DNA of 64,000 nt from the NCBI RefSeq assembly GCF_028416635.1, contig NZ_CP114013.1, positions 1,798,001 to 1,862,000 on the forward strand, in the 5' to 3' direction. Under the pieces are notes generated by a model that was given only the letters and a program-made list of their open reading frames with translations, was not told the origin of the DNA and ran no database searches. Within the stretch, counting starts at the first letter, position 1; each line of letters starts with the position of its first letter. The stretch is from Baekduia alba. GTDB taxonomy: Bacteria > Actinomycetota > Thermoleophilia > Solirubrobacterales > Solirubrobacteraceae. Of this stretch, positions 43,361 through 51,936 are shown piece by piece. The position numbers and the translations under genes are program-made.

Positions 43361-43414
43361 CGTTCGCGCCCGAACGCGGCGCGTGCGGAGGCTTGCTGGC
43401 GTCCGACGACCGTG

Positions 43415-43428
43415 CGAACATGTGTTCG
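43415..43428 (+). promoter_or_regulatory. LexA (SOS) box of imuB
   Basis: CGAACATGTGTTCG, a perfect CGAAC-N4-GTTCG operator ending six bases before the imuB start at 43435, so it covers the expected transcription start. Confidence 0.88.
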
Positions 43429-43434
43429 CATCAG

Positions 43435-44673
43435 ATGGTCGTCGCCGTTCTCCTTCCACGTTTCGAGCTCGTCATCGCCGCCGGTGGGCGCGAGGTCCTC
43501 GCGCGCGGCCCCGCGGCCCTCGCGCCGGAGCCGGGGCGGGAGCAACGTGTAGGAGAAGTGTCGTCCTCGGCGGAGGCGTTCGGGGTCCACGCGGGGATGC
43601 GCTTGGGCGAGGCGCTGGCGCGCTGCCCGTCGCTGGCGCTGATCCCGCCAGATCCGATGGGCGTCGCCGACGCGTGGGACAAGGTGCTCGCGCGGCTGGA
43701 GTCGGCGGGCGCGGCGGTGGAGAGCGAGGCGCCGGGGCTGGCGTTCTTCGACGCGGCCGCGCTGGCGCGGCTGCACGGCGGGCGCGCGGCGGATGACCCG
43801 GCGGCGGCGCTGCGGGCGCGGATGTCGGCCGGCGGCGCGCCGCCGTGGCTGGCGGGGGTCGTGACGGCCGTGCGCGCCGCGCTGCGCCTGCCCGCGCGGA
43901 TCGGCGCCGGGCCGTCGCGGTTCTGCGCGCTGGCAGGGGCGGTGCGGGCACGGTCGCGGCGGGCCGAGCTGGTCGACGGCGCGGCCGCGCTGGCCGGCGA
44001 GCCGGTCGCGCTGCTGCGGCGCCGGCCGGAGGTCGAGGCGCTCGTGCGGCCCTTGGAGCGCCTGGGGATCGGGACGCTCGGCCAGCTCGCGGCGCTGGAA
44101 CGGCCGGTGGTCGCCGACCGCTTCGGGCGCGCGGGGGAGTTGGCCTATGACCTGGCTCTCGGGCGCGACAGCGAGCTGAAGCCGCGACAGCCGGGGGAAG
44201 TGCTGGAAGAAGTCCTGGAGCTGCCGGAGTCGGCGTCGGGGGTGCAGCTGGGGCGCGCGCTGGTGTTGTTGGTGGACAAGCTGTTGGCGCGGCGGGAGCG
44301 CGACGGGCGGACGCTGCGGGCGGTCGTCCTGGGCGCGCGCCTGGTCGAGGGCGGGACGTGGCGCGAGCGCGTCGTGTTCCGCGAGCCGCTGGCGGACGCG
44401 ACGCGGATGCGGCTGGCGCTCGGGCAGAAGCTGGTGATGCTGCCGGCGCCGGCGGAGTCGCTGCGGCTGACCGTCGAGCGCTTCGGCGCGGTCAGCGCGG
44501 GGGCGCACGCGCTGTTCGACGACGGCTCGGCCCAGCGCACGGCCCGGATGCGCGAGGCGATCCGCCAGGCCCGCGCGGTCGCGGGCCCGGAGGCGGCGCT
44601 GCGCGTGCTGGAGGTGGATCCGGACTCGCGGGTACCGGAGCGCCAGGCGGTCCTGGCACCGTACGAGCTGTGA
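43435..44673 (+). CDS. imuB: ImuB-like Y-family polymerase homologue
   Basis: 412 residues from ATG 43435. It begins VVAVLLPRFELVIAAGG, where true Y-family polymerases have the catalytic DMDAFYASVE, so the active-site acidic residues are missing as in ImuB. IMS-type features follow: GVHAGMRLGEALARCPSLALIPPDP, LPARIGAGPSRFCALAGA, LLRRRPEVEALVRPLERLGIGTLGQLAAL (HhH), FGRAGELAYDLALGRD and a little-finger-like C-terminus. ImuB bridges DnaE2 and the beta clamp in SOS mutagenesis. It is shorter than most ImuB proteins (about 500). No imuA is seen. A LexA box lies immediately before it. Confidence 0.85.
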   Translation: MVVAVLLPRFELVIAAGGREVLARGPAALAPEPGREQRVGEVSSSAEAFGVHAGMRLGEALARCPSLALIPPDPMGVADAWDKVLARLESAGAAVESEAPGLAFFDAAALARLHGGRAADDPAAALRARMSAGGAPPWLAGVVTAVRAALRLPARIGAGPSRFCALAGAVRARSRRAELVDGAAALAGEPVALLRRRPEVEALVRPLERLGIGTLGQLAALERPVVADRFGRAGELAYDLALGRDSELKPRQPGEVLEEVLELPESASGVQLGRALVLLVDKLLARRERDGRTLRAVVLGARLVEGGTWRERVVFREPLADATRMRLALGQKLVMLPAPAESLRLTVERFGAVSAGAHALFDDGSAQRTARMREAIRQARAVAGPEAALRVLEVDPDSRVPERQAVLAPYEL

Positions 44674-44868
44674 TCTGCGGGCCGCCTCGCCGCGCCTGGA
44701 GCCACCCGGCGGAGCTTGACGGGCTGGCGCCCGCCGGCGCTCGCCGTGCGATCTGCGGGCCGTCTCGCCGCGCCTGGAGCCACCCGGCGGAGCTTGACGG
44801 GCTGGCGCCCGCCGGCGCTCGCCGGGTGGCCCCAGCCGCGACGATCCGGGCCGCAGATTCCCGAGGGC
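44673..44868 (+). repeat. Long intergenic hairpin repeat, 1.5 units, after imuB
   Basis: Left arm plus loop occurs twice (44673-44751 and 44752-44825 or so), and a right arm once (44816-44868). Paired blocks are ATCTGCGG/CCGCAGAT, CGCG/CGCG and GCCACCCGGCG/CGCCGGGTGGC, around a loop containing TTGACGGGCTGGCGCCC. The same loop with different but again self-complementary arms occurs at 50606-50838. The unit begins inside the imuB stop region and ends at the ribosome-binding site of the next gene. Confidence 0.7.
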
Positions 44869-44875
44869 GGCAGCG

Positions 44876-45121
44876 GTGACCAGCCCGCGCCGGCTCAACG
44901 TCCCGCTGCCCGCGACCGTCCGGGCCGATCCGCGCGGCCGGCCGCTGGCCGTCGACGGCCGCGCGGTGGACGCGGTGCGCGAGTCGTGGGTCGTGGAGGA
45001 CCGCTGGTGGACCGACGCGCCGCTGCGCCGGCGCTACTGGGAGGTCGTGACGACGCGCGGCGACTTGTTGGTGTTGTTCCGCGAGCTGGACCAGGTGGGT
45101 GGGTGGTACCGGCAGCGCTGA
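44876..45121 (+). CDS. DUF6504-family protein
   Basis: 81 residues from GTG 44876 with GAGGG eight bases upstream. Reads RLNVPLPATVRADPRGRPLA then AVDAVRESWVVEDRWWTDAP and LRRRYWEVVTTRGDLLVLFRELDQVGGWYRQR, a small beta-rich domain. DUF6504 genes usually lie next to Y-family polymerase or dnaE2 genes in actinobacteria, as here. The function is unknown. Read-through from imuB past the hairpin repeat would place it under SOS control. Confidence 0.75.
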   Translation: MTSPRRLNVPLPATVRADPRGRPLAVDGRAVDAVRESWVVEDRWWTDAPLRRRYWEVVTTRGDLLVLFRELDQVGGWYRQR

Positions 45122-45191
45122 CGCTCCTGCGCGGTTCCGTGACATATGCGTCTGGTTCCTGCGCAGGTCGCTCGGCAGGGTCGGTGGCCAC

Positions 45192-46427
45192 ATGGCGTGG
45201 CATGGCGGCGGGACATCCGGGCAGGGATCGGTGGAGTGGGTGGCGGTCGTCGCCCTCGTCGCGGTCCTGCTCGGGACGACCGGCGCCGCGCTCGCGCAGG
45301 CCGGGTTCCTGGGCCGGCGCGTCACGCGCGAGCTGGCGCGGGCGGTCTGCGTCGTCTCGGCCGGCGACTGCTGGCGCGACCGGGAGCCGTGCGTGGTCGG
45401 GTCGTCCTCCGACGCCGCGTTCTGGAAGGTGGGGATCGCGATCGTCCGGGTGGGCAAGGACCGGCTCGCGCTCGTCGAGCGGCGGTCGGACGGCACGGTG
45501 GCCGTGACGCTCGAGGGCGCGTGGCGGGGTGGGGCGGAGGCGTCGGTGGGCACGCCGCGCGTGGCCGTCAAGCTCAAGGGCATCGACTTCTCGGCCGGCG
45601 GCGAGCTGACCGCGTCGCTGCTCGCGCGGCTCGGCGACGGCCGGACGTGGATCGTCGGCTCCGAGGCCGAGGCCCGCGCGCTGGTCGCGGCCGGCGGGTC
45701 GGCGCGGCCGCCCGACGTCACCTACGGCGATCGCGCGTGGCTCTCCACGCTGAGCGCGACGCTCGGGGCCGATGTCATGGGCACCGGCGAGGGCCTTGAC
45801 GTGGCGAGCGCGCAGGTCGCGTTCGACCAGCACTGGGGCACGGCGACCGACCACCGCACGGGCCATCGCACGACGTCGATCCACGCGTCCTGGTCGGGGT
45901 CGGTCGCGCTGCTGCGCGACGTGCTCGGGGCCACCGGCGGCGACGACGGGCCGGTCGTCGCGGTCGAGGCCGACGCCGCCGGCCGGCCGCTGGACCTGCG
46001 CATCACGACGACCGGGACCTTCGGCGGGTCGCGCGACCTCCCGGGTGCCGTGCAGCCGGTTGCGGGGCTGCTGGCGGCGCGCGCGGGGGCCGGCGCCGAC
46101 CGGCGCTACGAGGTCACCGCGCACCTCGACCTCACCGATCCGCGCGACCTCGCCGCGGCGCGCGAGCTCCTCGCCGCGATCGACGGCAAGCACGCGCGCA
46201 CGACACCCGGACCGGAGCTGCGGCGGCTCCTCGACGCGCGCGCGACGATCGAGGCGCGGGTGCTGGCGGAGCGGTCGACGGGCCACGACGCCGAGCTGTC
46301 GGGCGGGACCGGCGGCGCGCAGCTCGGCTACTCCGAGCACTCCGAGCACCATGACCGGGAGCTGCTCGCGGCGTCCTCGCGCGGCCTGGACGGGCAGTGG
46401 ATCACGCGGACGGATTGCGTCGCATGA
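45192..46427 (+). CDS. Unrecognised 411-aa protein with TadE/Flp-like N-terminus
   Basis: ATG 45192 opens MAWHGGGTSGQGSVEWVAVV followed by ALVAVLLGTTGAALA. A short Gly-rich leader, then Gly-Gln-Gly-Ser-Val-Glu and a hydrophobic helix, is the pattern of TadE/Flp-type pilin proteins cut by a prepilin peptidase. The remaining 370 residues are a soluble, beta-rich domain with two early cysteines (RAVCVVSAGDCW, EPCVVG), a regular VTLEGAWRGGAEA...VKLKGIDFSAGGELTASLL part and a late ALLAARAGAGADRRYEVTAH part. No family is recognised. It sits between DUF6504 and dnaE2, ending 28 bases before dnaE2. Confidence 0.7.
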   Translation: MAWHGGGTSGQGSVEWVAVVALVAVLLGTTGAALAQAGFLGRRVTRELARAVCVVSAGDCWRDREPCVVGSSSDAAFWKVGIAIVRVGKDRLALVERRSDGTVAVTLEGAWRGGAEASVGTPRVAVKLKGIDFSAGGELTASLLARLGDGRTWIVGSEAEARALVAAGGSARPPDVTYGDRAWLSTLSATLGADVMGTGEGLDVASAQVAFDQHWGTATDHRTGHRTTSIHASWSGSVALLRDVLGATGGDDGPVVAVEADAAGRPLDLRITTTGTFGGSRDLPGAVQPVAGLLAARAGAGADRRYEVTAHLDLTDPRDLAAARELLAAIDGKHARTTPGPELRRLLDARATIEARVLAERSTGHDAELSGGTGGAQLGYSEHSEHHDRELLAASSRGLDGQWITRTDCVA

Positions 46428-46442
46428 CGTCCGCGATCTGTG

Positions 46443-46456
46443 CGAACATGTGTTCG
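46443..46456 (+). promoter_or_regulatory. LexA (SOS) box touching the dnaE2 start codon
   Basis: CGAACATGTGTTCG, identical to the imuB box. Its last base is the first base of the GTG start codon at 46456, so bound LexA would cover the initiation region of a leaderless or near-leaderless message. Confidence 0.85.
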
Positions 46457-49400
46457 TGCCGTACGTCGAGCTCCACTGCCATTCGGCCTTCTCGTTCCTG
46501 GACGGCGCCTCGCTGCCCGAGGAGCTGGTGGTGACGGCGCTGGAGCGCGGACATCGGGCCCTCGCGCTGACCGACCACAACACGGTCTCGGGCTCGATGG
46601 AGTTCGCGCAGGCGGCGTCGTCGCTGGGGCTGAAGGCGATCCACGGGGCGGAGGTGGACGTCGTCGATCCGGGGTCGGCGCGCGAGCAGCGCGAGGGCGC
46701 GCTGCTCTCCGACGACGAGGCGGCCGGTCGCTGGAAGCGGCACGTGACGCTGCTCGTGCGCGACGCGACCGGCTGGCGCAACCTGTGCCGGCTGCTCACG
46801 CGAGCGCACGCGCACACGCGGGAGTCGCCGGGGCGGCGACGGGTGCTGGCGCCGCTGCTGACGGTCGCCGACCTGGCCGAGCTCTCCGAGGGGCTGGTGT
46901 GCCTCTCGGGCTGCGCGGACCACGGCGTCCACGACGAGCCGACGGCCCGCGCGCTGCTGGCGGCGTTCGGGCGCGACGCGTTCCGGGTCGAGCTCCAGCG
47001 GCCGTTCGGGCGTCACGACCGCGGCCGCAACCGCATGTTGATGGACTTGGCGCGGCGGCTGGGCGTGCCGTGCGTGGCGACGGGCAACGTCCACGCCCAC
47101 GCGCCGGAGCGCGCGCGGCTGCAGGACGCGTTCGTGGCGATCCGCGAGCACACGACGCTGGACGCGTCCGAGCCGCTGCGGCGTGGCAACCACACGCACA
47201 TGCTCACGTCGCCGGAGGCGATGGCCGCGCGCTTCGACGACCATCCCGAGGCGGTGGCCGAGACGCTGCGGCTGGCCGAGACGCTGCGCTTCGACCTCAC
47301 GGCCGACCTCGGCTACCGCTACCCGGGGGCGGAGGACGACGGCGCCGACCGCAAGCTGGCCGAGGTCTGCGACGCGCTGTTCGACGCACGCTACGGCCCG
47401 GGGACCGACGGCCACGGACATCGCGCGGCGGCGACGGCGCGGCTGGACCAGGAGCTGGCGCTGATCCGCGACCTCGGGTTGTCGGGGTTCTTCCTCCTGC
47501 ACCACGAGATGCTCGAGCTGGCGCGCGAGGTCGCCGCCGAGGTGCGTGGCGGCGCGGCCGCCCGGTCGCTGCTGCCGCCGGGGCGCGGCCGCGGCTCCTC
47601 GGTGTCGTCGATCGTCTGCTACCTCACCGGCCTCTCGCACGTCGACCCGATCGCCAACGACCTCCTCCTCGGGCGCTTCCTCAACGAGGAGATCACGTCG
47701 CTGCCCGACATCGACCTCGACTTCCCACGCGACGTGCGCGCGGTCCTGATCCCGCGCGTGCACGAGCGCTTCGGGTCCGATCACTCGGCGCTGGTCGCGG
47801 CGTTCCCGACCTACCGGGCCCGCGGCGCGATCCGCGAGCTGGGCAAGGCCTTGGGGTTGCCGCCGGGGGAGATCGAGCGGGTCGCGCGATCGTCGGAGGC
47901 GTTCTCGGCCCAGAGCGTGGACCGCGACATCGCGGTCGCGCTCGGCGAGGGGCGCGAGGCCGAGGGGCGCTGGCGCTGGCTGCACGAGCTGGCGTCGGAG
48001 GCGCACGGCCTGCCGCGCCACCTCAGCCAGCACTCCGGCGGCATGATCGTCGCGACGCGCCCGCTGATCGACTGCTGCCCGGTCGTGCCCGCCGCGATGG
48101 AGGGCCGGCAGATGGTGATGTGGGACAAGGACTCCTGCTCGGACGCCGGCTTCCTGAAGATCGACCTGCTCGGGCTCGGGATGCTGTCCGCGGTCGAGCG
48201 CTGCGTGGAGGCGGTCCACGCGCGGCGCGGCGAGCGGATCGACCTGTCGCGGATCCCGATGGACGACGACGCGACGTTCGAGTGCATCCAGAACGCCGAG
48301 ACCACGGGCGTCTTCCAGATCGAGAGCCGGGCGCAGATGGGCTCGCTGCGGCGCACGCGGCCGGCGACGCTGCAGGACCTCACGATCCAGGTGGCGATCG
48401 TGCGCCCCGGGCCGATCGTGGGCGGTGCGGTCAACCCCTACATCGACCGGCTCCAGAAGCTGCGGGTCGACCCGACGTACGAGATCCCCTACGACCACCC
48501 GTCGTTGAAGGACGTCCTGGAGGACACGCTCGGGACGATCATCTTCCAGGACCAGGTCATCGAGGTCGCGATGGCGTTCTCGGGGTTGTCGCCGGGGGAG
48601 GCCGAGGGGCTGCGGCGGGCGATGAGCCGCAAGCGGTCGACGGCGGCGATCGAGGCCTACCACGAGCGCTTCGTCGCGCGGGCGATGGCGAAGTGGGACG
48701 ACGTCGACGAGGAGCTCGGCGAGCGCGTGTGGACGATGGTCAAGGGCTTCTCGGGGTTCGGCTTCCCCAAGGCCCACGGCGCCGCGTTCGGGCTGCTGGC
48801 CTACCAGTCGACGTGGCTGCGCGTGCACTACGGCACCGAGTTCCTGGCCGCGCTGCTCGACGAGCAGCCGATGGGCTTCTACCCACCGGACGCGCTGGTG
48901 CACGAGGCGCAGCGGCGGGGGATCGGCGTGCTGCCGCCCGACGTCAACGCGTCGGAGGCGGGATGCATGGTGGTGGACGTCGACGACGAGGGCACGTCCG
49001 GAGTTCGCATAGGCCTTGGGTACGTGCTGGGCGTGCGGGCCGACGACGTCGAGGCGCTGGTCGCGGCGCGCGCGGCGGCGGGGCCGTTCGCCACGATCGA
49101 GGACCTGGCGTCGCGCGCGGGCGCGGGGCGGGGCGCGCTGGAGCAGCTGGCCTGGTCGGGCGCGTGCGACGCGCTGGCGGGCGGCTCGCGCCGGCGCGCG
49201 CTGTGGGAGCTGGGCGTGGCGGCGCCGGGCCGGCGGCTGCTGACATCGGTCGTGGGCGCGTCGGGGCGGCGCGTGCGCGCCGAGATGGGAACGCAGCTGG
49301 CGCTGCCGCTCGGCGTGGGGCAGGCGCCGGCGCTGCCGGGCCTCTCGGGTTGGGAGGCGATGATCGCCGACTACACGACGACCGGGCTGACGACGGCGCA

Positions 49401-49992
49401 GCATCCGCTCGGGCTCCTGCGCGACGAGCTGCGCGCCAAGCGCATGGTCTCCAGCGGCGACCTGGAGCGGCTGCGGCACGGGACGGCGGTGAAGGTCGGC
49501 GGGCTGGTCGTCGCGCGGCAGCGACCGGGGACGGCGAAGGGCGTGGTCTTCATGCTGCTGGAGGACGAGGCGGGGACGGTCAACCTCGTCGTGCCGCCCG
49601 ACGTCTACGAACGCGACCGGACCGTCGTGCGCGCCGAGCCGCTCGTCGTGGCCGAGGGCGTGCTGGAGCGCCACGCGTCCGGCGGCGGCGCGATCAACAT
49701 CGTGTGCCGACGCCTGGCGCGCCTGGACGCCAGCGGTCACCTCCAGGCCGCGCCGGCCGCCGACGTCGGCGTCCACCACGTGACCTCCGTGACCGGCGGC
49801 ACGGCCGAGCGGATGGGTGGGGACGTCATCCAGGTCAAGGACTTCTCGATGCTCGACGCGATCGAGCTCGCCCGCCAGGACGCTCGCCGCGCCGCCGAGT
49901 CCGAGCCCGACGACCTCGCCGCCACCGGCACCGACGACTTCCGCGCCATCGCACCACCGGTCCAGAGCTTCGCGGCGGGACGCCGCCGGTGA
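46456..49992 (+). CDS. dnaE2: Error-prone DNA polymerase DnaE2
   Basis: 1178 residues from GTG 46456 (PYVELHCHSAFSFLDGAS); GTG 46450 is also possible. An N-terminal PHP domain (LHCHS, LALTDHNTVSGSMEF), the palm with PDIDLDFPRD (about 416-425), the SQHSGGMIVATRPL finger region, FGFPKAHGAAFGLLAYQSTWLRVHY, an HhH region and a C-terminal OB domain (VKVGGLVVARQRPGTAKGVVFMLLEDEAG) are all in order. DnaE2 performs mutagenic translesion synthesis with ImuB. It is its own SOS unit, separated from imuB by 1.8 kb. Confidence 0.95.
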   Translation: MPYVELHCHSAFSFLDGASLPEELVVTALERGHRALALTDHNTVSGSMEFAQAASSLGLKAIHGAEVDVVDPGSAREQREGALLSDDEAAGRWKRHVTLLVRDATGWRNLCRLLTRAHAHTRESPGRRRVLAPLLTVADLAELSEGLVCLSGCADHGVHDEPTARALLAAFGRDAFRVELQRPFGRHDRGRNRMLMDLARRLGVPCVATGNVHAHAPERARLQDAFVAIREHTTLDASEPLRRGNHTHMLTSPEAMAARFDDHPEAVAETLRLAETLRFDLTADLGYRYPGAEDDGADRKLAEVCDALFDARYGPGTDGHGHRAAATARLDQELALIRDLGLSGFFLLHHEMLELAREVAAEVRGGAAARSLLPPGRGRGSSVSSIVCYLTGLSHVDPIANDLLLGRFLNEEITSLPDIDLDFPRDVRAVLIPRVHERFGSDHSALVAAFPTYRARGAIRELGKALGLPPGEIERVARSSEAFSAQSVDRDIAVALGEGREAEGRWRWLHELASEAHGLPRHLSQHSGGMIVATRPLIDCCPVVPAAMEGRQMVMWDKDSCSDAGFLKIDLLGLGMLSAVERCVEAVHARRGERIDLSRIPMDDDATFECIQNAETTGVFQIESRAQMGSLRRTRPATLQDLTIQVAIVRPGPIVGGAVNPYIDRLQKLRVDPTYEIPYDHPSLKDVLEDTLGTIIFQDQVIEVAMAFSGLSPGEAEGLRRAMSRKRSTAAIEAYHERFVARAMAKWDDVDEELGERVWTMVKGFSGFGFPKAHGAAFGLLAYQSTWLRVHYGTEFLAALLDEQPMGFYPPDALVHEAQRRGIGVLPPDVNASEAGCMVVDVDDEGTSGVRIGLGYVLGVRADDVEALVAARAAAGPFATIEDLASRAGAGRGALEQLAWSGACDALAGGSRRRALWELGVAAPGRRLLTSVVGASGRRVRAEMGTQLALPLGVGQAPALPGLSGWEAMIADYTTTGLTTAQHPLGLLRDELRAKRMVSSGDLERLRHGTAVKVGGLVVARQRPGTAKGVVFMLLEDEAGTVNLVVPPDVYERDRTVVRAEPLVVAEGVLERHASGGGAINIVCRRLARLDASGHLQAAPAADVGVHHVTSVTGGTAERMGGDVIQVKDFSMLDAIELARQDARRAAESEPDDLAATGTDDFRAIAPPVQSFAAGRRR

Positions 49993-50094
49993 CGTCTCAC
50001 CGCACGCTCGCCGCGGGGCCTCTCTGCCCCGCTCGCGGCCCTCTCGCGGTCCGTCGTCAGGGTCAGGACTTGCGCTGGGGGCCGGGTCACCGGA

Positions 50095-50100
50095 TAGGGT
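50095..50100 (+). promoter_or_regulatory. -10 element (leaderless) of the cytochrome c gene
   Basis: TAGGGT, seven bases before GTG 50108, with TTGCGC at 50070-50075 as a poor -35. The same TAGGGTCCCG precedes the glnA start (53053), suggesting a shared leaderless promoter type. Confidence 0.4.
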
Positions 50101-50107
50101 CCCGCTC

Positions 50108-50605
50108 GTGATCGGGACCCTGGTCTTTGTCCTCATCTTCCTCGCCATCGGCCTGTCGGTCGTGTTGGCGGCGATGCGCAGCGGGCGGCCCCCCGCCGGC
50201 TCCAAGCCCGAGTCCCGTGGCGCCCGCCGCGCGTGGGGCGTCGGCCTCGCGCTCGTGATCGTCGTCCTCGGCGTCGGGCTGCCCGTGCTCATCCTGGTCA
50301 CCAACAGCGACGACCACGCCTCCCACGGCGCCGGCGGAACCGAGCTCAACGCCGCCGCCACCAACGGCCGGGAGCTGTTCGCGCGCAACTGCGCGACCTG
50401 CCACACGCTCGACGGCTCCAACGCGGTCGGCCGCGTCGGCCCCAACCTCGACACGCTCAACGGCGGCAACCTCAAGCCCGCCTTCATCCTCGACGCCATC
50501 AAGAACGGCCGCGCCCGCGGCGCCGGCCAGATGCCGGCCGGCCTGCTCGTCGGGCAGGACGCGCAGGACGTCGCGGAGTACATCGCAACAGTCTCCGGCC
50601 GCTAG
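50108..50605 (+). CDS. Membrane-anchored c-type cytochrome
   Basis: 165 residues from GTG 50108. Two hydrophobic helices (about 2-22 and 44-64) precede an extracytoplasmic cytochrome c domain with the haem site C95-A-T-C98-H99, a GPNLDTLNGG turn and the likely axial Met142 (GAGQMPAGLL). Class I cytochromes of this size shuttle electrons near terminal oxidases or other redox partners; no partner is encoded nearby. The start lies seven bases after a TAGGGT -10. A pair of long intergenic hairpins begins at the stop codon. Confidence 0.85.
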   Translation: MIGTLVFVLIFLAIGLSVVLAAMRSGRPPAGSKPESRGARRAWGVGLALVIVVLGVGLPVLILVTNSDDHASHGAGGTELNAAATNGRELFARNCATCHTLDGSNAVGRVGPNLDTLNGGNLKPAFILDAIKNGRARGAGQMPAGLLVGQDAQDVAEYIATVSGR

Positions 50606-50838
50606 CCCGGCGCGTCTGCGCGCCGCCTCGTCGCGCCTGAGCGCACCGACCGGTTTGACGGGCTGGCGCCCGCCTGCACTCGCCCGGCGCGCTCAGCCAC
50701 GACGATGCGGGGCGCAGACGCGCCGGGCGCCGCCTCGCCGCGGCTGAGCGCACCGATCGGCTTGATGGGCTGGCGCCCACCGGCGCTCGCCCGGCGCGCT
50801 CAGCCACGACGATGCGGGGCGCAGACGCGCCGGGCGCC
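50606..50838 (+). repeat. Two long intergenic hairpin repeats after the cytochrome gene
   Basis: Unit 1 (50606-50727) has a 16-bp outer stem (CCCGGCGCGTCTGCGC with its complement at 50712-50727), then a CCGC-TCGTCG/CGACGA-GCGG stem and an 8-bp CTGAGCGC/GCGCTCAG stem, around a TTGACGGGCTGGCGCCC loop. Unit 2 (about 50720-50838) repeats it with TTGATGGGCTGGCGCCC. A third right-arm piece is at 50856-50872. The loop matches the repeat after imuB, but the arm sequences differ. Confidence 0.7.
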
Positions 50839-50881
50839 GGGCGTTTCGGCGCCGCGGCGCAGACGCGCCGGGGACGTCGAG

Positions 50882-50931: not shown

Positions 50932-51126
50932 GTGCGGACCTGTCAAGAGGCAATTCGCACGACCTTGTTAAGTCGTGCGTGGCGTGCTCCGGAGATGTCA
51001 AGTGGGCGTTTTCCGCAGGTTGCGGGGTCATTCCGTCCGACGCACCCCTGACTATGCCGTCAGTTGGCGCTTGCCATAACTCTGCGATCTAGCAGGGATT
51101 TTCGACGTTGCTACGATGCCGCCGTT

Positions 51127-51256
51127 CACTACCGCTGAATCCTCCTCCGGGCACGCCCGGCTGGGGAGCGGGGGACCCACGTTGCATCGGGGCGAATCGC
51201 CTTGTGCGTAGCGCCGCTCTTTCGGCGCGAGCCCGTCAGCTAACCCCGTAAGCCCA
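51127..51256 (+). promoter_or_regulatory. Cyclic di-AMP riboswitch (ydaO/yuaA type)
   Basis: Consensus blocks appear in order: ACCGCTGAAT, GGGGACCCAC (51171-51180), GGGGCGAAT (51188 region), a variable GCGCCG-TCTTT-CGGCGC hairpin, and GAGCCCGTCAGCTAACCCCG followed by TAAGC. This is the ydaO/yuaA element, which binds c-di-AMP and usually turns expression off. It ends 24 bases before the start of the 218-aa membrane-protein gene and is followed by GAGGA at the ribosome-binding site. In actinobacteria the class typically controls wall-remodelling or ion-transport genes. Confidence 0.92.
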
Positions 51257-51279
51257 AGGAAGAGACTGAGGACACTTCG

Positions 51280-51936
51280 ATGCCATCGACGGACGCGCCC
51301 AACTGGTGGGCCGATGTGCAGCAGGAACGTGAGGATCTCGCTGGGCCGGGCAGCCGCCGCCCCGCCGACGACTGGCTGGGCGAGGACATCGACTTCGTGC
51401 CGCGCAGGCGCATGACGAGCCGTGCGCCGATCGAGGAGCGCGTGGAGGCCGCCGACGACCGCGACCGTGACGGCGCGAGCCATCCGCTCCACGGCGTCTT
51501 CGTCCCGGCCGCCGACGAGCCCGCCGGCCGCACGATCGAGCTGACGATGGCCGACGACGTCGTCGTCGCCGAGGCGCCCGCCGGCGTCGCCCACGAGCTC
51601 GCGCACCTCAGCGCCGCCGACGATCCCTTCGCGTCGCCCCCGCCGCCCGCCGGCGCGCGCCGCACCGTCCAGATCAAGGGCCGTCCGACCGACCTGCGGA
51701 TGCCGTCGATGGCCCAGCGCCACCGCGGCCGCACCGCGTCTGACCGCGTCGGCGCCCGCCCGGACCGCATCGCCCTCTGGGCCGTCGCCCTCGGCGCGAT
51801 CCTGATCCTGCTCGCCGCGATGACCTCCTCGTCGCAGGCCGCGGTGCCTCACGCCGCTCCCGCGCCCGCAGTCCACGCGAAGGTGACGCACGTCGCGCCC
51901 CACGCGCCGCTGCGGACCTTCCAACGCCACTCCTGA
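51280..51936 (+). CDS. Riboswitch-controlled single-pass membrane protein, unknown
   Basis: 218 residues from ATG 51280 with GAGG eight bases upstream. Residues 1-160 are acidic, Asp/Pro-rich and probably disordered (WWADVQQEREDLAG, DDWLGEDIDFVPRR, HPLHGVFVPAADEPAGRTIEL). One helix (about 166-188: IALWAVALGAILILLAAMTSS) is followed by a short Ala/Pro/His tail. No family is recognised. Control by a c-di-AMP riboswitch suggests a part in turgor, potassium or cell-wall homeostasis, by analogy with other genes of this regulon. Confidence 0.75.
   Translation: MPSTDAPNWWADVQQEREDLAGPGSRRPADDWLGEDIDFVPRRRMTSRAPIEERVEAADDRDRDGASHPLHGVFVPAADEPAGRTIELTMADDVVVAEAPAGVAHELAHLSAADDPFASPPPPAGARRTVQIKGRPTDLRMPSMAQRHRGRTASDRVGARPDRIALWAVALGAILILLAAMTSSSQAAVPHAAPAPAVHAKVTHVAPHAPLRTFQRHS

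Follow-up and report, generated by a model that had tools for sequence, protein, structure and literature searches.

The long hairpins behind two genes of the analysed window, a stretch of 64,000 nucleotides from Baekduia alba, are probably copies of a dispersed, non-autonomous palindromic mobile repeat of the REP/MITE-like kind, which folds into a single long, imperfect hairpin and is inserted at a (C/G)TAG stop codon or beside it. A REP-like repeat was among the options of the original prediction, and it is this option that the comparative analysis favours, based on about 37 dispersed copies in the genome, a patchy distribution, empty orthologous sites, the placement at stop codons and between convergent genes, and the presence of a RAYT-type gene. 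Further evidence comes from the covariation of the arms, the enrichment of TAG and the strand asymmetry of folding. Such long palindromic repeats are fairly classified as a new family of the general REP/ERIC/RUP-like kind.

Hairpin units in the 64-kb window

The organization of the two loci is listed below. The designations imuB and cytochrome follow the original prediction, which drew on the sequence alone.

44671 to 44673, + strand: stop TGA (imuB-like ORF, 43393-44673), with the A shared by the first unit as its initial base
44673 to 44746, + strand: truncated first copy comprising the left arm, the loop and a portion of the right arm; repeats in tandem with the unit that follows it over 78 bp at 97% identity
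44751 to 44858, + strand: full unit after the imuB-like ORF; arms 44751-44789 and 44820-44858 (85% complementary), loop motif 44794-44810
50603 to 50605, + strand: stop TAG (cytochrome-c-like ORF, 49817-50605), located immediately at the hairpin base
50605 to 50728, + strand: full unit after the cytochrome-c-like ORF; arms 50605-50648 and 50685-50728 (89% complementary), loop motif 50655-50671
50727 to 50836, + strand: second unit without a matching left outer arm of its own; 107-bp tandem duplicate, 93% identical, loop motif 50762-50778
50853 to 50872, + strand: extra piece of the right outer arm (GCGCAGACGCGCCGGG)

Hairpins had been proposed at both loci and are present there as units with tandem and partly truncated copies (44673-44858 and 50606-50836). 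The units 44751-44858 and 50605-50728 are full, whereas 44673-44746 is a truncated first copy with a partial query match (query positions 1-63). The proposal that each unit starts at a stop codon holds for the first unit of each locus, whose first base overlaps the TGA of imuB or which is preceded by the TAG of the cytochrome gene, but the second unit results at both loci from a tandem duplication. The unit 50605-50728 is the top match of the genome to the covariance model described below (116.1 bits), with a minimum free energy (MFE) of -99.0 kcal/mol and a z-score of -9.2 against dinucleotide shuffles. The respective values are 99.9 bits, -82.9 kcal/mol and -6.3 for 44751-44858, and 95.9 bits, -71.1 kcal/mol and only -2.4 for the second unit 50727-50836. 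The conserved loop TTGAYGGGCTGGCGCCC is present at exactly four positions of the window. Its pattern was matched 11 times across the 5.86 Mb of the genome, compared with no match for the reversed pattern, which confirms the predicted conservation of the loop.

An intrinsic terminator, i.e., a hairpin followed by a U-tract, was considered and rejected, as no U-tract was found at the units. A c-di-AMP (ydaO/yuaA) riboswitch is located at 51123-51269, shortly 3' of the tandem hairpins and before the ORF 51280-51936.

Family size and distribution

The source genome (Solirubrobacteraceae; G000) was compared with relatives that are labelled from G001 onward, with G001 to G006 representing same-genus comparisons. 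A DNA query retrieved 34 matches in the source genome, and a covariance model built from 25 of its copies detected about 37 loci plus tandem fragments at 1745612 and 5412171-5412425. A search of related genomes, which had been proposed as a check for further copies, revealed relatives of the hairpins in 28 of the 146 Solirubrobacteraceae genomes, and the model is now available for a repeat family of a little-studied actinobacterial class. Two loop subtypes, TTGAYGGGCTGGCGCCC and TTCACGTGCTGGCGCACGCTG, can be distinguished. The unit length amounts to 110-125 nt within the source genus and reaches about 190 nt in relatives, many of whose copies are longer palindromes with their own ends (e.g., G009, G011, G031 and G155). 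A conserved 20-mer led to relatives in Conexibacter MAGs, Solirubrobacter soli and Solirubrobacter phytolaccae.

The copy number varies strongly within the genus, ranging from zero in the complete genome G001 and two in the complete genome G005 to seven in the partial G003, 12 in G006 and about 37 in the source genome. Two identical 113-nt copies are located at different sites of G031, and three near-identical copies are present in G009. Rfam searches with gathering and relaxed thresholds returned no family match, only miRNA-type noise, and nothing relevant was found in the literature on Conexibacter or Thermoleophilia repeats. The hairpins belong to an uncatalogued family of palindromic repeats of about 110-190 bases, which has apparently spread through Conexibacter-type soil bacteria and settled immediately after stop codons, similar to REP and ERIC repeats elsewhere. 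At 5412171-5412575 of the source genome, four copies are arranged in tandem with a spacing of 101 bp, and three of them have a different left part.

Covariation and folding strand

The arms had been described as different between loci yet complementary, and this is well supported by the 25 copies of the model: standard pairs account for 93.8% of the cells compared with 80.7% after shuffling and 30-45% when slid, and 19 of the 36 pairs exhibit two-sided changes. The latter comprise 103 cells versus 33.5 in the shuffled data, a value that was reached in none of 500 shuffles and that exceeded all slides, whereas one-sided changes are few (nine cells). Three mismatches on the + strand (C.A, C.A and C.C) are nearly invariant and persist across genera. 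The retention of pairing alongside these conserved mismatches supports the postulated selection on structure.

The complementarity might alternatively be kept by a DNA mechanism, namely, template switching or quasi-palindrome correction in a cruciform or hairpin whose fold is without function. The scarcity of one-sided changes, several copies with tandem duplication or internal deletion, and arms that extend into coding sequence (e.g., GTGGCGTAGTCA/TGACTACGCCAC at L177) would fit this scenario, which we nevertheless regard as quite improbable: correction would erase mismatches, yet the same C.A, C.A and C.C persist across genera, and a strong strand bias applies to the non-Watson-Crick pairs that are tolerated. 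Specifically, A.C exceeds G.U at paired columns by 36:23 in the source genome and by 21:0 in the other members of the genus (overall 57:23, p 0.0002, with p-values that are merely indicative since the copies are related). This ratio provides a clear strand test, documenting which strand of a covarying hairpin is selected. In 63 of 66 copies, the opposite strand folds more stably (by 13-22 kcal/mol under RNA and 6-10 kcal/mol under DNA parameters), because the conserved C.A mismatches turn into G.T or G.U there. Selection of the fold, if it takes place, acts on the complement of the strand that was folded in the original prediction. This bias speaks against a sense 3'-UTR element as well as against simple palindrome correction.

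At a locus common to G046 and G048, two species of the genus g18, three base pairs are changed two-sidedly (T-A to C-G, G-C to A-T and G-C to C-G). In the copies L177 and L180 of these two genomes, the palindrome extends into the last codons of the upstream gene (GTGGCGTAGTCA/TGACTACGCCAC), and a single coding base and its partner on the other side of the hairpin have changed jointly.

Placement at stop codons and empty sites

The copies of the source genome are located at gene 3' ends, with 20 of 36 between convergent and 12 between co-directional genes according to automated gene calls. TAG represents 20 of the 25 stops at the 5' base (p 0.0005) and 33 of the 44 stops at both bases (p 0.0003), compared with a background of 17 of 47 in the window. 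Most copies have CTAG or GTAG at the 5' base, CTAG being commoner; several begin at TGA, and some genes read into the element and end at its internal TGA. The orientation toward the upstream gene applies to nearly all copies by eye and is weaker in the automated calls (12:3 in the source genome, 15:4 in the genus and 6:5 elsewhere). A replication-strand bias is seen only roughly, the position of the origin not having been located. Copies at the stop codon of secG are found in two genera (1745506 in the source genome, L003, and L176 in G049), and perhaps they represent independent insertions.

Across ten loci and the genomes G001 to G006, all 32 comparisons that could be read, with an aligned flanking gene, showed an empty orthologous site. 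These loci comprise the positions downstream of mraY, a relA-like ACT gene, glmS, corA, trxB and gltD as well as four more. glmS has the TAG whether or not the element follows. At locus 1278593, a single CTAG is common to two convergent stops in G006 and G001, and the source genome has the arrangement CTAG-element-CTAG, which fits a TA/CTAG duplication or an insertion at CT^AG. This site shows the target duplication clearly. A second one is likely at 1369150, which fits a duplicated TA if the ancestor was GGCTAAGACGG, while at trxB and 4479082 both stops pre-existed and a duplication is thus not readable. The only locus found to be shared within the genus is guaA, where three Conexibacter species have copies whose arms differ; common descent and repeated insertion are indistinguishable here, and some copies persist or recur.

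The nearly exclusive position at 3' ends with 20 of 36 copies between convergent genes (automated calls), the strong covariation, the two-sided changes in the copy common to G046 and G048, and the guaA copy in three species might point to a functional structured RNA or DNA that is selected in place at gene ends, for instance as a bidirectional terminator, a stabilizer of the mRNA 3' end or an RNase target. However, the units lack a U-tract, the element is missing at nearly all orthologous genes, and in 63 of 66 copies the strand on the mRNA side folds less stably. Together with the excess of A.C over G.U on it (21:0 in the other members of the genus), this is the reverse of the expectation under sense-RNA selection. 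This explanation is hence hardly convincing, and the suggested class of 3'-UTR RNAs, terminators or attenuators is not supported, given the missing U-tract, the near-absence of conservation at orthologous genes and the opposite position of the better-pairing strand. The result is a warning that compensatory change in intergenic hairpins need not imply a regulatory RNA.

Candidate enzymes and relation to known repeats

The source genome contains one Y1_Tnp gene above the Pfam cut-off (C1:1466926-1467258), which scores 63.6 bits with the NCBIfam model REP_Tyr_transpos, i.e., below the cut-off of 80. RAYT-type genes co-occur with the hairpins, as they are present in 12 of 28 carriers versus 10 of 118 non-carriers (p 5e-5, with phylogeny and genome size ignored). 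The RAYT-type gene that had been proposed as a check thus exists, but no hairpin flanks it: a covariance-model search of ten RAYT-type loci, the genome's own and nine in six relatives, detected no copy (none better than E 0.13). Several near-complete genomes, such as G059, contain hairpins but no Y1 transposase. A search of the source genome and G006 with the arm pattern (up to three mismatches) retrieved hairpins, deletion derivatives and chance-level matches only, and no autonomous element sharing these ends; a parent with diverged ends may still exist. The mover may be either a DDE transposase that targets TA or a HUH enzyme of the RAYT type supplied in trans.

The hairpins resemble REP/GTAG palindromes and the RAYT-associated REPINs (PMC3733652, PMC8266576, PMC3116915) as dispersed imperfect palindromes with (G/C)TAG at the base of most copies, often as a stop codon, with stem mismatches conserved on the tagged strand, with a position just after the stop codons of convergent or co-directional genes, and with a RAYT-type gene in the genome, but they differ in having CTAG besides GTAG. 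GTAG REPs are placed after stop codons in uni- and convergent gene settings, with the TAG stop provided by the REP ends (PMC3733652), and conserved stem mismatches on the tagged strand are known from E. coli REPs (PMC8266576). These parallels and the co-occurrence with RAYT-type genes would be compatible with a true REP/REPIN of two inverted GTAG-tagged REPs that is moved by the product of C1:1466926-1467258, an explanation that overlaps with the preferred one. It is nevertheless unlikely, given a length of 110-190 nt versus 20-40 nt for REPs, the lack of copies beside any RAYT locus examined (no REPtron) and the presence of copies in genomes without RAYT genes. Moreover, the 5' arm alone folds no better than shuffles (mean z -0.12), and the hairpin is therefore not composed of two REPs. 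The REPIN architecture, in which each arm is a palindrome, was rejected, as the z-scores of the 5' arm centre on 0.

Small bacterial MITEs such as ERIC/IRU/RU-1, RUP and Correia/NEMIS (PMC2229807) are likewise non-coding elements of 100-200 nt with palindromic ends, TA at the termini, an intergenic position or sometimes one in gene ends, and a patchy copy number. The hairpins differ from them by another, G+C-rich sequence, by the lack of a detectable parent IS and by a TA duplication at only one or two sites. Yersinia YPAL/RU-2 (PMC2229807) is also a long repeat with inverted repeats that is not A+T-rich and is located at or beside dyad-symmetric target sites, but it has no TA ends, shows duplications of 3-26 bp and is unrelated in sequence.

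The preferred reading of a non-autonomous mobile repeat implies that the element would fold while the DNA is single-stranded, and that a transposase acting in trans might recognize this fold by its conserved loop, mismatches and TAG-tagged base and move or copy the element to another TAG. Copies would survive where this TAG is the stop codon of a gene, which may account for their location at 3' ends and between convergent genes, and the arms could drift yet stay complementary through selection for the folded form. The transposition itself, the recognition of single strands and the type of enzyme (a DDE transposase targeting TA, or a HUH enzyme of the RAYT type) are what we infer. It is rather doubtful, but somewhat less so than the alternatives above, that the hairpins even represent a separate class of long mobile repeats that fold as single strands and would be recognized through their bottom strand (antisense to the upstream gene), with an insertion at TAG stops that would depend on an enzyme other than a classical RAYT and with arms that would be diversified by a self-correcting palindrome mechanism.

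Deletion derivatives

Internal-deletion derivatives that have lost the inner part and retained the outer arms are located at 907100 and 2679017 of the source genome and at 865487 of G006. At 2679017 (L257), nothing but the outer arms is left, as a mini-hairpin of 30 nt (TAGGGCGATCCTGCG-tgc-CGCAGGATC) that is located immediately at a TAG stop. The end motif of the longer G031 variant, used as a query, retrieved more hairpin copies, one unrelated match and a 42-bp mini-copy (L197 in G031), which resembles the mini-hairpin at 2679017.
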